From IMG/VR virus record IMGVR_UViG_3300000117_000159, positions 1 to 29,369 of that record: a stretch of 29,369 bases of DNA; one strand, written 5' to 3'. The stretch is from a virus. The position numbers and the translations under genes were made by a program. Positions 3,200 through 18,462 of this stretch are shown piece by piece. How positions within the stretch are numbered: position 1 is the first letter of the stretch; every line of letters begins with the position of its first letter. The notes below the pieces were generated by a model. That model was not told where the DNA came from. It did no database searches and was given only the letters and a program-made list of their open reading frames with translations.

Positions 3200-3555
3200 G
3201 GGGGCGTTTTGGTTTTGACATGTGTAATGGATTAATAATATCAGCAGTCAGTGGTGACTTTAAACACTGTAGGTGAATTTCAATAATTGGAAATATATCA
3301 AAAAACAGCGCTGCATTTGCAGACAAAGTAGAAGCAATGGTCTTTAATATTGCACCAGTTGAGGAAGAGTTGCTTATGGCAGCATAAGAATCAACTAAAT
3401 GAGTTTCTTTATTCTCATACAAAATAAAGTGGTGGTAGCCCAACATTCATTGTTGGTCTCAGAGTTTGTTAGGCGCTCTTTAAATGCCTTACATAAGCTG
3501 TATAAATATTATTATGAAGAGCATATGGACCAGGGTTCGACTCCCTGCGCCTCCA
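3200..3555 (+). ncRNA. ssrA: Transfer-messenger RNA (tmRNA)
   Basis: tmRNA frees stalled ribosomes: it enters as alanyl-tRNA with SmpB, then templates a degradation tag. The 5' end GGGGGCG (3200-3206) pairs over all 7 bp with CGCCTCC (3548-3554); the third pair is G-U, the alanine identity element. It is followed by TTTTGGTTTTGACA, typical of tmRNA 5' ends. The T-arm CAGGG-TTCGACT-CCCTG (3531-3547) is perfect. After the tag stop, ATGAG/CTCAT (3399-3403/3414-3418) forms a stem whose loop CTTTATT (3407-3413) pairs with AATAAAG (3423-3429): a pseudoknot as expected. A hairpin follows at 3440-3444/3452-3456. Discriminator A3555 is followed by CTA, so CCA is not encoded. Length of about 356 nt is normal. 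No SmpB gene is seen here, so host SmpB is presumably used. Confidence 0.95.
3319..3387 (+). other. tmRNA tag reading frame
   Basis: The frame ending at TAA 3385-3387 encodes a tag that ends ...EEELLMAA. The terminal Ala-Ala after a hydrophobic pair is the usual protease-recognition end of tmRNA tags. The resume codon is not certain. GCA at 3319 would give 22 residues (begins ADKVEAMVFN); GCA at 3313 or GCT at 3310 would give 24 or 25. This is longer than the common 8-15 residue tags. Confidence 0.75.
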
Positions 3556-3578
3556 CTATTAACTAAATTAACTTAATT

Positions 3579-3707: not shown

Positions 3708-3847
3708 ATAATATATTAAGTGCCAATGATTGGCTTAAAAAAAATAAAAATAAGTATATAAATGGTAGTTCTGTTGCTATAGTTATGAAGCAGTATGCTA
3801 TTTATTATAATAATATGTTAAATGAACTCAATAAAAAAAATAACTAG
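3704..3847 (+). CDS. Small protein (47 aa) overlapping the radical-SAM gene
   Basis: ATGA overlap with the previous stop, and a 26-base overlap with the next gene. The product begins MNNILSANDWLKKNKNKYIN, continues with GSSVAIVMKQYAIYYNNMLN and ends KKNN. No motif recognised. Coupled translation from the previous to the radical-SAM gene is the likely arrangement. Confidence 0.5.
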   Translation: MNNILSANDWLKKNKNKYINGSSVAIVMKQYAIYYNNMLNELNKKNN

Positions 3848-4685
3848 AAAAAGTATGTTAATTAGAGAGTCTGGTAGAAGCTCTGATTATATTACTCCTA
3901 GTTTTGGATATGGATGTTTATTTAATTGTAGTTATTGTTATATGAAAAGACATTTATCTAAAGGATTAACTGTTGCTAAAAATGCAGGAGATATTTTAAC
4001 AGAAATTAATAATCATGTTTATTTTTATGCAGATGTAAAAAAACCTAATCAAACTCATAAAGAATATATTACTTATGATATATCTTGTAATGAAGATTTT
4101 GCTTTGCATTCTAAATATCATGACTGGAAATATATATTTAAATTCTTTAGAGATAATACAAAAGCTTTAGGTACTTTTGCAACTAAGACTATTCCTATAA
4201 ATTTTTTAGAGTTTAATCCAAAAAAGAAAATAAGAATAAGATTTAGTCTTATGCCTCAGAACATAGCTGATAAACTAGAACCAAACACTGCTAAAATTAT
4301 TAATAGAATAAAAGCTGTTGATGCTTTTATAGAAGCAGGATATGAGGTTCACTTAAACTTTTCACCTGTTGTTGTTTATGACGGTTGGTTAGAAGATTAT
4401 GAAATGTTATTTGAAATGTGTAATGATTATATAGAGAATAAAGAAGAAGTTTTATCTGAAGTTATATTTCTTACACATAATGAAAAGAAGCATAAAGATA
4501 ATTTAATCAATAATCTACCTGGTGAAGATTTATTATGGACACCAAAAACTCAAGAAACTAAAACATCTCAGTATGGAGGTGTAAATATAAGGTATAAACA
4601 TAATCTTAAAAAACAGTACATAAAAAAATGGACTAGTTTACATAATAAGATTATACCTTGGAATACAATTAGATATATATTTTAA
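3822..4685 (+). CDS. Radical SAM enzyme, spore photoproduct lyase-like
   Basis: The radical-SAM cluster site is C-x3-C-x2-C (Cys32, Cys36, Cys39, in YGCLFNCSYCYMKRHL), binding [4Fe-4S] and SAM. Three further stretches fit spore photoproduct lyase, which reverses the thymine dimer 5-thyminyl-5,6-dihydrothymine in spore DNA. They are YDISC (Cys89, placed like that enzyme's H-donor Cys), TFATKT (about 118-123), and HLNFSPVVVYDGWLEDYEML, typical of the C-terminal barrel of that family. At 287 aa it is shorter than Bacillus SplB (about 340). Phage genomes do carry SplB-like proteins, but nothing here suggests a spore-forming host, so the substrate may differ: another DNA photoproduct or a nucleic-acid modification. 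Family assignment is good; substrate unknown. Confidence 0.8.
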   Translation: MNSIKKITRKSMLIRESGRSSDYITPSFGYGCLFNCSYCYMKRHLSKGLTVAKNAGDILTEINNHVYFYADVKKPNQTHKEYITYDISCNEDFALHSKYHDWKYIFKFFRDNTKALGTFATKTIPINFLEFNPKKKIRIRFSLMPQNIADKLEPNTAKIINRIKAVDAFIEAGYEVHLNFSPVVVYDGWLEDYEMLFEMCNDYIENKEEVLSEVIFLTHNEKKHKDNLINNLPGEDLLWTPKTQETKTSQYGGVNIRYKHNLKKQYIKKWTSLHNKIIPWNTIRYIF

Positions 4686-4688
4686 AAC

Positions 4689-4796
4689 ATTACGGTTGGG
4701 GTTTTTGTAGTTTCATCCATTTATGAAATGTTTGCTTGATATATTTATGCGAAGATGAACTACGTCAGCATATCAAGGGGGCAGAGTAAACGTAAT
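4689..4796 (+). ncRNA. Pseudoknotted structured RNA candidate
   Basis: The 134-base gap after the radical-SAM gene contains nested and crossing helices. An outer ATTACG/CGTAAT pairs 4689-4694 with 4791-4796. A long helix GTAGTTTCATC (4707-4717) pairs with GATGAACTAC (4754-4763), with one bulged T. CTTGATAT (4735-4742) in its loop pairs perfectly with ATATCAAG (4770-4777) beyond it, making an H-type pseudoknot. A competing hairpin TTTCAT/ATGAAA (4711-4716/4723-4728) would exclude the long helix, so the RNA could switch. G-rich single strands (4698-4701, 4777-4781) lie outside the helices. It sits directly before the small gene at 4820. It could be a riboswitch-like leader or a processed small RNA; no known class matched by eye. 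Confidence 0.6.
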
Positions 4797-4819
4797 ATTA
4801 AAATTAAACCAAAACAAAG

Positions 4820-5002
4820 ATGAGTAAGATTTCATTATTAGAGTTCTATACTAAATACTTTAAAGTAAATGGCAAAGAACCTACTATAACAGATAAGGAT
4901 AAATGGTTACTTGAAAATTTAGAGAGTGGTAATATACAAAGAGTATGGACTCGTAAATATGGGTGGCAATACAAACAATTAAACCAAAACAAAGATGAGT
5001 AA
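4820..5002 (+). CDS. Small protein (60 aa), unknown
   Basis: It starts in the first copy of the 24-base repeat. The product begins MSKISLLEFYTKYFKVNGKE, continues with PTITDKDKWLLENLESGNIQ and has RVWTRKYGWQYKQ near the end. This aromatic/basic tail recalls short phage proteins of unknown role. The C terminus NQNKDE is encoded by the second repeat copy, which also holds the next start codon. Function unknown. Confidence 0.65.
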   Translation: MSKISLLEFYTKYFKVNGKEPTITDKDKWLLENLESGNIQRVWTRKYGWQYKQLNQNKDE

Positions 5003-5087
5003 AGAGGAATTAGGTAAACTTATAGTATATTTTGTAGTAATTGGATTATCTATACTATTAGGTATAGGATTGTCGGATAAATTTTAA
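4995..5087 (+). CDS. Single-pass membrane peptide (30 aa)
   Basis: ATG lies inside the second repeat copy and overlaps the preceding stop by eight bases. The product is MSKEELGKLIVYFVVIGLSI followed by LLGIGLSDKF: a short charged start and one membrane helix (about residues 9-26). Its stop overlaps the third repeat copy. The shared start element and clean helix support it as a real gene despite its size. Function unknown. Confidence 0.55.
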   Translation: MSKEELGKLIVYFVVIGLSILLGIGLSDKF

Positions 5088-5099
5088 ACCAAAACAAAG

Positions 5100-5240
5100 A
5101 TGAGTAAGGAAAAACTTGTTGGTATGATATGTAAAGAGAGGTTGCAAACTCTTGAGGAGAATCCACCCCGTTGCCCGCGCAGTAAGGGAATAAAGAAAGT
5201 CCTCACACCTTATTCATTTATTAAACCAAAACAAATATGA
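5100..5240 (+). CDS. Small Pro/Cys-containing protein (46 aa)
   Basis: It starts in the third repeat copy. The product begins MSKEKLVGMICKERLQTLEE, followed by NPPRCPRSKG. The codons for that stretch (about 5160-5190) are clearly more G+C-rich than the surroundings, which may mean recent transfer or an embedded signal. The last codons are read from the fourth repeat copy (IKPKQI), and the stop overlaps the next ATG (ATGA). Function unknown. Confidence 0.5.
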   Translation: MSKEKLVGMICKERLQTLEENPPRCPRSKGIKKVLTPYSFIKPKQI

Positions 5241-5482
5241 GTAAAGAAGATTATAGCCATTGGGCAGATAAAAGAGATACTTGGTTTAAGACAATGCAAC
5301 TAGCAGAAGAAGAAATATCTGAAGTTAAAAAGAAATATTTTAACAGATGGAATATTATAGGTGGTGTATCTAAGGAACAGTTTGATGAATGTAGTAAAGA
5401 AATACAAGCTGTCTATGCTAAGTATAAAATTCAAGTAGATAGAGAAGGTAAAATTATAAACCAAAATAAAGATGAAAAATAA
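5237..5482 (+). CDS. Helical charged protein (81 aa), unknown
   Basis: It starts in the fourth repeat copy. The product begins MSKEDYSHWADKRDTWFKTM and is dominated by charged helical sequence (QLAEEEISEVKKKY; EQFDECSKEIQAVYAKYKIQ), which could form a helical hairpin. The C terminus INQNKDEK is encoded by a degenerate copy of the leader repeat and overlaps the next start by 11 bases. Function unknown. Confidence 0.65.
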   Translation: MSKEDYSHWADKRDTWFKTMQLAEEEISEVKKKYFNRWNIIGGVSKEQFDECSKEIQAVYAKYKIQVDREGKIINQNKDEK

Positions 5483-5810
5483 ATTAATAATAATGGGATT
5501 AGCTATTCTAATGTATAGCTGTTCTGCAAGTAAAGATTTAGAAAATGGCATCTTTAATAATGGGTACTCATTAAATAAATTTAGCACTGTTAACTATGAT
5601 GTTGTTTTAAATGATGTAGTAATAGCACACGTTACATCTATAGAGTGGGAATACTTTAAGGGTGAGCTAGTTAGAGAAATATCAGTAACAACTAAAAATC
5701 ATATGTCAGATAATGATATTATAGACATGATAAAATTTCTACATTCAAAGTATCCTGACTTTAAGATAGAGGTCAACAATGATGGAACAGATAAGTTTTA
5801 TGAGCACTAA
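5472..5810 (+). CDS. Lipoprotein (112 aa), unknown
   Basis: The product begins MKNKLIIMGLAILMYSCSAS: a lipoprotein signal with lipobox MYSC, Cys17 the predicted lipid site. The mature part alternates hydrophobic and polar residues (VVLNDVVIAHVTSIEWEYFK) and ends with a helix plus strand (SDNDIIDMIKFLHSKYPDFK then IEVNNDGTDKFYEH), a small alpha/beta domain. A phage lipoprotein may act at the host envelope, for example against superinfection, but this is inference. Overlaps the gene before it. Confidence 0.65.
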   Translation: MKNKLIIMGLAILMYSCSASKDLENGIFNNGYSLNKFSTVNYDVVLNDVVIAHVTSIEWEYFKGELVREISVTTKNHMSDNDIIDMIKFLHSKYPDFKIEVNNDGTDKFYEH

Positions 5811-5822
5811 ACTAGAGCAAAG

Positions 5823-6032
5823 ATGATTAATAGTGGTAGAGAATGGGATTGGATGGATAAAGAAACAAAAATGGCTGAAAAAGACGTTATATACGCATTA
5901 GAGCTATTACATACAGTGCAAATAAAAAGAGAGTGTTTACAATTTGCTTCATTTGTAAATGAGAAGTTTAAAAACTTAACTAAACTAGAAAAAGATAAAC
6001 TTTGGTTAAAATATTTAAAAGAAGATGGTTGA
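5823..6032 (+). CDS. Small helical protein (69 aa), unknown
   Basis: The product begins MINSGREWDWMDKETKMAEK, continues with a long helix DVIYALELLHTVQIKRECLQ and ends KLEKDKLWLKYLKEDG. It is entirely charged and helical with no membrane segment. Its C-terminal end overlaps the next start by eight bases. The leader AGAGCAAAG is a degenerate form of the local initiation repeat. Function unknown. Confidence 0.6.
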   Translation: MINSGREWDWMDKETKMAEKDVIYALELLHTVQIKRECLQFASFVNEKFKNLTKLEKDKLWLKYLKEDG

Positions 6033-6108
6033 AATAGTAATATTTAGTTGGTGTTTAGGCGGATTAGTCTGTTTATATCTATTCTATAAAAAAAATAAAT
6101 TAAAATGA
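6025..6108 (+). CDS. Tiny membrane peptide (27 aa)
   Basis: ATG overlaps the end of the previous gene and the stop overlaps the next ATG (ATGA), so it is locked between two good genes. The product begins MVEIVIFSWCLGGLVCLYLF and ends YKKNKLK: one membrane helix followed by a positive tail, suggesting N-out/C-in topology. Function unknown. Its size makes it uncertain, but the tight coupling on both sides favours translation. Confidence 0.5.
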   Translation: MVEIVIFSWCLGGLVCLYLFYKKNKLK

Positions 6109-6293
6109 AAAATATATTATTAATTATGATGATGCTACTAGGTAGTTTATCTTCATGCACTAAACATCCTGATAGTCCAGGATACCATTATTTTGATGAT
6201 ATGGAGGAATCACCTGCATATAAAGCATATGATGCCGTTCGTGATACTCATATTACGTGTAGAGACATCCCTAAAGGTACTATTAAATATTAG
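6105..6293 (+). CDS. Small lipoprotein (62 aa)
   Basis: The product begins MKNILLIMMMLLGSLSSCTK. The hydrophobic core and lipobox LSSC place the lipidated residue at Cys18. The mature part is short, acidic and Tyr/His-rich (HPDSPGYHYFDDMEESPAYK), with one more Cys near the end (ITCRDIP). This is the third lipoprotein-type gene in the early region. The envelope location is supported by the signal; the role is unknown. Confidence 0.65.
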   Translation: MKNILLIMMMLLGSLSSCTKHPDSPGYHYFDDMEESPAYKAYDAVRDTHITCRDIPKGTIKY

Positions 6294-6303
6294 ATTAAAT
6301 GCT

Positions 6304-6459: not shown

Positions 6460-6486
6460 TAAACAATAGTAGTTAGTTAAATAGTT

Positions 6487-6560
6487 AAAATAAAGGGAGT
6501 GAAAAAGTTAAAAAATGAAAGATATCCAGGACTTAAAATGTTCGTGGCTCCCTTTATTTT
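6487..6560 (+). promoter_or_regulatory. Long-stem structured leader or terminator
   Basis: AAAATAAAGGGAG (6487-6499) pairs over 13 bp with CTCCCTTTATTTT (6548-6560). The 48-base interior contains an A-rich strand and a second hairpin, CCAGGAC/GTTCGTGG with one bulged base (about 6526-6547). The downstream stem strand ends TTTATTTTTAT, so it may terminate transcription, but the complex interior is unusual for a simple terminator and resembles a leader that folds around something. It lies before the gene at 6592. Confidence 0.55.
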
Positions 6561-6591
6561 TATACTATAAATAAGTAATAAATAAATAATT

Positions 6592-17941: not shown

Positions 17942-18277
17942 ATGTTTTCAAAATATAAAAAGAAAAAATTTGCAGTAGAAAAAGTAGAAATAAGAAAAAA
18001 AAGTTATGCTAGGGAGAGTAAAGATGCTCTCCTTAGTTATAACCCTCTTAAAGAATTTGTTTCTATAAGGACAGAAAATATACCTTATGCACTAGAAATA
18101 CTTAAAGAATTATATCCTGCAGGTACGCTTGACAATAATGTAACAGCTGCAACTTTAATTAGATATGAATTTCAATGTGAATGTACAGCAAAACAAGTTG
18201 AAGATTCTAGAGGTTACTATATGACTTCAAATGAAGAAGAGGATGCAAGATATATTTATAGGCATTGTTTAGAATAA
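17942..18277 (+). CDS. Unknown protein (111 aa), end of the amidoligase operon
   Basis: It starts just after the previous stop (TAATATG). The product begins MFSKYKKKKFAVEKVEIRKK, a basic N terminus, then LKEFVSIRTENIPYALEILK then ELYPAGTLDNNVTAATLIRY, ending CECTAKQVEDSRGYYMTSNE and EEDARYIYRHCLE. No motif recognised; a CEC pair lies near the end. Whether it belongs to the amide cluster or to replication cannot be said from sequence. Confidence 0.6.
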   Translation: MFSKYKKKKFAVEKVEIRKKSYARESKDALLSYNPLKEFVSIRTENIPYALEILKELYPAGTLDNNVTAATLIRYEFQCECTAKQVEDSRGYYMTSNEEEDARYIYRHCLE

Positions 18278-18282
18278 TTAAA

Positions 18283-18462
18283 ATGAAAGAGATAGAAGAA
18301 GAAGAAACGTGTTTAAATTGCTTTGATACAGGAGAATATTTTAATGGGAAAACTATGGAAATATGTGAATGTAAAGCAGGTAACACAATAAAAAAAAGTG
18401 AAGATGGAGATAGTAGTGAGGATGACAGAGAAAACTTTAATATTAAAAAAACAAAGACCTGA
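18283..18462 (+). CDS. Small Cys-motif protein, possible zinc ribbon
   Basis: ATG at 18283 is preferred to an upstream TTG. The 59-residue product begins MKEIEEEETCLNCFDTGEYF. It has CLNC and, about 17 residues later, CECKAG, a C-x2-C ... C-x-C pattern with Gly after the cysteines, like a DnaJ-type zinc knuckle. The C-terminal part is acidic then basic (SEDGDSSEDDRENFNIKKTK). It overlaps the next gene. Zinc binding is inferred only from spacing. Confidence 0.6.
   Translation: MKEIEEEETCLNCFDTGEYFNGKTMEICECKAGNTIKKSEDGDSSEDDRENFNIKKTKT

Follow-up and report, generated by a model that had tools for sequence, protein, structure and literature searches.

Genome Setting and Flanking Genes

The virus record consisted of 29,369 bases, and the whole of this stretch is referred to as the window. 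The top match of the phage DNA polymerase was a phage of the cyanobacterium Leptolyngbya, and several crAss-like records (crAss001, cr108_1, and others) were among the best named phages, all with less than 60% identity. Amidoligase-type families were encoded as well. The phage is environmental and possibly crAss-like, which is offered as a lead. At 3200-3558 the phage carried a tmRNA, for which a long tag was predicted (GNISKNSAAFADKVEAMVFNIAPVEEELLMAA); ARAGORN detected none in 48 related loci, all of them fragments.

On the + strand, a radical-SAM gene encoding 287 aa (3822-4685) belonged to the Pfam SPL (spore photoproduct lyase) family (PF20903, E 4.7e-25). Its stop codon formed the left border of a non-coding gap of 134 nt (4686-4819, + strand), which was bounded on its right by the start of a 60-aa gene (4820-5002, + strand). 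Stop-to-stop frames overlapping this gap were at most 28 aa, except for that of the downstream gene itself. Comparison of the short frames with related loci by tblastn gave a best E of 0.05, and a hidden peptide was rejected on this basis. The 60-aa gene was the first of a repeat-led run of small genes and matched no PHROG family; six neighboring proteins compared with PHROGs gave no named family. The G+C content was 36% in the element of the gap described below, 25% in the upstream gene, 29% at 4821-6300, and 38% in the phage tmRNA.

When gaps of at least 70 nt between + strand ATG frames of at least 40 aa were listed, they totaled 2,573 of the 29,369 bases. The region 456-1122 (667 nt, G+C 34%) contained no + strand ATG frame of 40 aa; a sub-threshold tRNA-like (mascRNA) match lay inside it at 794-854, where ARAGORN predicted no tRNA.

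Leader Repeat and Small-Gene Run

The first small gene had its start codon within a 24-nt leader repeat (4804-4827, + strand; TTAAACCAAAACAAAGATGAGTAA). More copies were found at 4979 and 5084 (exact), at 5221 (1 mismatch), and at 5456 (4 mismatches), and the copies stood at successive gene starts between 4804 and 5479. An 18-nt form of the repeat occurred in at least 120 IMG/VR stretches, and a 25-nt form was exact in two PLSDB plasmid records. The order of the small genes differed between phages, with reshuffling visible among the loci L001, L002, L124, L139, and the window. Judged by these comparisons, the leader repeat is the border mark of gene cassettes shuffled among phages.

A terminator-like stem was found at 6479-6575. 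This stem, near 6490-6560, was kept in the related loci L061 and L062 as a short hairpin with compensating changes, while the window carried about 39 nt inserted in the loop. Because this stem was kept in both loci, the small-gene run probably ends near 6490-6560.

Anatomy of the Element at 4689-4796

The original prediction had placed a pseudoknotted RNA between the radical-SAM gene and the repeat-led operon, with crossing helices of about 10 and 8 bp and a 6-bp closing stem. All of these helices were there, all were Watson-Crick, and the element filled positions 4689-4796 of the 134-nt gap. The closing stem of 6 bp (4689-4694/4791-4796, + strand) abutted both gap borders, beginning 3 nt past the stop codon and ending 7 nt ahead of the leader repeat. 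Helix A consisted of 10 bp with U4713 bulged (4707-4712 and 4714-4717/4754-4763, + strand), and helix B consisted of 8 bp (4735-4742/4770-4777, + strand); the two helices crossed. A competing hairpin had been proposed to switch off the long helix. Such a hairpin of 6 bp did exist (4711-4716/4723-4728, + strand), but it was weak, at -2.1 kcal/mol versus -7.5 kcal/mol for helix A folded alone.

Comparison with Shuffled Sequences

Thresholds of 10, 8, and 6 bp, which had been picked after the structure was seen, were used for counting the shape in shuffled sequence. Dinucleotide shuffling of the 108 nt gave 4 sequences in 20,000 with a Watson-Crick helix of 10 bp or more crossed by one of 8 bp or more, and 0 in which these were also closed by a stem of 6 bp or more. 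With a looser energy score that allowed G-U pairs, the observed value was reached in 32 of 2,000 shuffles, and at 31 of 2,439 + strand positions and 5 of 2,439 - strand positions. A first pseudoknot score that allowed mismatches (two helices, 18/400; three helices, 2/400) was superseded by these stricter scores.

The real window held exactly one closed event, that at 4689-4796. Crossing helices of 10 and 8 bp lacking the closing stem were found at four other + strand sites (near 679, 9433, 13609, and 16135). When the whole window was shuffled, 10 of 60 shuffled windows held at least one closed event of equal shape (mean 0.23). The excess over chance was thus clear locally and borderline for the whole window. 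As 10 of the 60 shuffled windows contained such a shape, all that stood out was how exactly it fitted a non-coding gap; a chance event inside such a gap would be uncommon, since the gaps made up only 2,573 of the 29,369 bases. A shape that is rare locally, yet appears in about one-sixth of shuffled windows, illustrates how difficult it is to judge pseudoknots in a single sequence.

Nested Folding

The nested minimum free energy (MFE) of the 108 nt was -21.0 kcal/mol (z -0.83), and 34 of 200 shuffles were as good. A z-score as low or lower was obtained in 421 of 1,084 windows of the same sequence. A free energy similar to that of shuffled sequence, which the original prediction had named as a finding against itself, was therefore observed for nested folding. 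Besides the closing stem, the nested MFE structure showed a hairpin of 4 bp around a 15-nt loop and a third stem with GGGCA at its end. Within the nested ensemble, the pair probability was about 0.01 for helix A, 0.97 for the first five pairs of helix B, and 0.53-0.88 for the closing stem. Prefix folding, in which the chain grows, gave helix A first, at 4763-4770, and favored helix B afterwards. In these models the pseudoknot is possible and is no requirement of the fold. The lowest folding z-scores of the whole sequence (to -6.4) were found at 17956-18307, inside or edging open frames.

Neighboring Genes in Related Loci

The radical-SAM protein was found in 53 IMG/VR loci at 52-89% identity, which represented 36 distinct downstream sequences; no relatives were confirmed in GTDB. 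The element was beside the gene in 0 of these 53 relatives. In 52 of them the next ATG frame (at least 25 aa) began at most 43 nt past the radical-SAM stop, and in L019 it began at 101 nt, with a GTG ahead of it as the possible true start. The gap of the window was thus an outlier among 54 homologous sites in a gene array that was tight otherwise. L001 was 90.6% identical up to position 4689, and in L001, L003, L004, L005, and L050 the stop codon passed directly into a similar leader.

The first small gene recurred in L002, L124, and L139 with 96-98% DNA identity. The element preceded it in none of the three, and another open frame stood ahead of the gene there. Since the element was found beside the relatives of neither gene, it is bound to neither neighbor. 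By sequence comparison, it looks like a lineage-specific non-coding insert in a shuffled cassette run.

Search for Homologues

A search of 4,227 Rfam 15 families revealed nothing above, or near, a cut-off at the element, which bore out the claim that no known class could be recognized. No tRNA or tmRNA was predicted at the element, and both assignments were rejected. Blastn in phages and plasmids gave short pieces only. Exact words of 24, 17, 16, 17, and 18 nt from the element were found in 0, 1, 5, 4, and 2 IMG/VR stretches, respectively, and the first ten of the loci hit, which exclude L202 and L203, were unrelated when viewed. An exact 21-mer had no match in GTDB. The reach of such exact-word scans is limited to close relatives.

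Of two single-sequence covariance models run against 38 related records, R2 had no match and R1 had six weak matches (E 0.84-5.3). BLAST against sets of 20, 50, and 33 related records (103 distinct) gave only short matches of at most 47 nt; the best of them covered 22 of 23 nt and lay inside an unrelated open frame of L205. Nothing convincing was found by nhmmer over the related loci. As no homologue was found in any collection searched, nothing pointed to selection for the structure; these collections may omit records very near the window's own, so that nearest relatives may exist outside them.

Comparison with Known Systems

H-type pseudoknot riboswitches and ToxI-type RNA antitoxins are short RNAs with two crossing helices; the type III (ToxI) RNA antitoxin consists of tandem repeated short pseudoknots next to an endoRNase toxin gene. 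The element resembled both in its two crossing helices and differed in having no Rfam match and no tandem copies, none being found by self-comparison of the window.

The closest RNA family by score was the CyVA-1 small-RNA family (RF02965), far below its cut-off. A highly diverged member with an enlarged third stem would explain why the window's best RF02965 match begins where the closing stem does, at 4689, and why the stems of the nested MFE (closing stem, hairpin, and third stem ending GGGCA) stand in an order similar to the consensus. This assignment is very improbable. The match scored 11.8 bits against a gathering threshold of 41.4, and its E values of 7.6 and 4.1 placed it among three and five families, respectively, at chance level; when RF02965 alone was searched in the window, E was 0.26. 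Two of 38 other records scored higher (14.8 and 12.6). The 5' half of the element resembled the consensus, while the model completed the closing stem with the wrong 3' strand, and a search for real family members gave only short matches at chance level. The consensus has 77 positions, versus 108 nt here.

The closest printed arrangement found was that of the extended start-associated sequences (ESAS) of cluster K mycobacteriophages, whose start-associated sequences the leader repeat TTAAACCAAAACAAAGATGAGTAA recalls. In the ESAS report, a short repeat stands at many translation starts with inverted repeats just upstream of some (PMC3203893), and the window likewise has a start repeat and upstream inverted repeats. 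According to the same report, the inverted repeats are present at about half of the sites as simple 17-bp pairs, and DNA-binding sites are favored on the grounds that the two arms lack the co-variation of paired RNA (PMC3203893). The ESAS inverted repeats thus recur, whereas those of the window cross and are single copy, with no second copy by self-comparison. The 13-bp ESAS repeat (GGGATAGGAGCCC) had 0 matches in the window at up to 2 mismatches. The element was not named in the accessible parts of the literature searched, which covered CyVA-1 (PMC7002113), structured RNAs and pseudoknots of crAss-like phages, Weinberg-type motif lists, start-associated sequences, and marine crAss-like or flavobacterial phages with tmRNA.

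Interpretation of the Element

No terminator, Bacteroidota-type promoter, or sigma-70-like promoter pattern was found at the element. As there was no terminator pattern in between, co-transcription with the small genes is likely; a free-standing small RNA is disfavored, as neither a terminator nor a Bacteroidota-type promoter pattern was present. A ligand- or protein-responsive element or a small stable RNA, as the original prediction suggested, stays a proposal, and the absence of the element beside the 53 upstream and 3 downstream relatives argues against a riboswitch serving either neighbor. RNA pairing with the leader repeat was rejected (-7.7 kcal/mol, with 713 of 1,000 shuffles as good).

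The element is a candidate only, and no demonstrated regulatory RNA. A plausible, tentatively preferred reading, whose transcription, folding, and function we infer, is that of a lineage-specific insert that is co-transcribed in a polycistronic mRNA, forms a single closed domain there, and acts in cis as a structural insulator. An insert of about 115 bp would have entered at the head of a small-gene run that is shuffled between phages at the common leader repeat, and would be transcribed within the polycistronic mRNA. The closing stem and helix B would make up the closed domain, with helix A either crossing B as a pseudoknot or yielding to it. The domain might insulate the radical-SAM message from the small-gene message, for instance as an obstacle to a nuclease or to a ribosome arriving from upstream, or might serve as a stability element, and would be no metabolite switch. 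Counted for this cis-acting RNA domain were its rarity in local shuffles (4/20,000 and 0/20,000), the sole closed event lying in a gap, the border fit, the raised G+C content, the outlier gap among 54 sites, the lack of a terminator pattern, and the folding of helix A and then B in the growing chain.

Nearly equal in rank is the reading that the gap is a spacer or decayed gene cassette without RNA function, left over from gain and loss of small genes, and that chance produced the pseudoknot, which was singled out from 29 kb. The ordinary, shuffle-like nested folding energy, the 10 in 60 shuffled windows that hold an equal event, and the lack of homologues argue for chance or decay and count against the RNA domain; the small genes reshuffled among L001, L002, L124, L139, and the window and the 22/23-nt match to the unrelated open frame of L205 also fit with chance or decay. 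However, the shape is locally rare, the closing stem fits the gap exactly, the G+C content is raised, and the gene array is tight elsewhere. It is less likely that the inverted repeats are protein-binding sites in DNA, such as a phage promoter, operator, or recombination site heading the cassette run. By analogy with ESAS, inverted repeats lie directly upstream of a start-associated repeat, and a shuffled cassette run would suit an expression or recombination site; but the repeats are absent from the other leaders by self-comparison, cross unlike simple palindromes, and come with no sigma-70-like or Bacteroidota-type promoter pattern. A metabolite riboswitch of the radical-SAM gene or the first small gene would agree with the intergenic leader position and the competing hairpin. 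It was rejected for lack of a conserved association, as the element followed the upstream gene in 0 of 53 relatives and preceded the downstream gene in 0 of 3 (L002, L124, and L139); no riboswitch family matched in Rfam, and this reading is accordingly given hardly any weight.

A bolder form of the RNA-domain reading, which we consider doubtful, is that the element represents a novel class of compact RNA with a closed pseudoknot. It would then be a non-coding cassette within the shuffled small-gene run of a possibly crAss-like phage and would affect the repeat-led operon as a whole. If the element is real, an RNA cassette would be moving between the protein cassettes of a phage operon and would serve structurally at its head.

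A further gap was observed in a related locus. The 191 nt at L003:4625-4815 lacked any + strand ATG frame of 40 aa, and no Rfam family was over its cut-off there. A strong terminator-like hairpin stood at the end of this gap, which is perhaps a small RNA.
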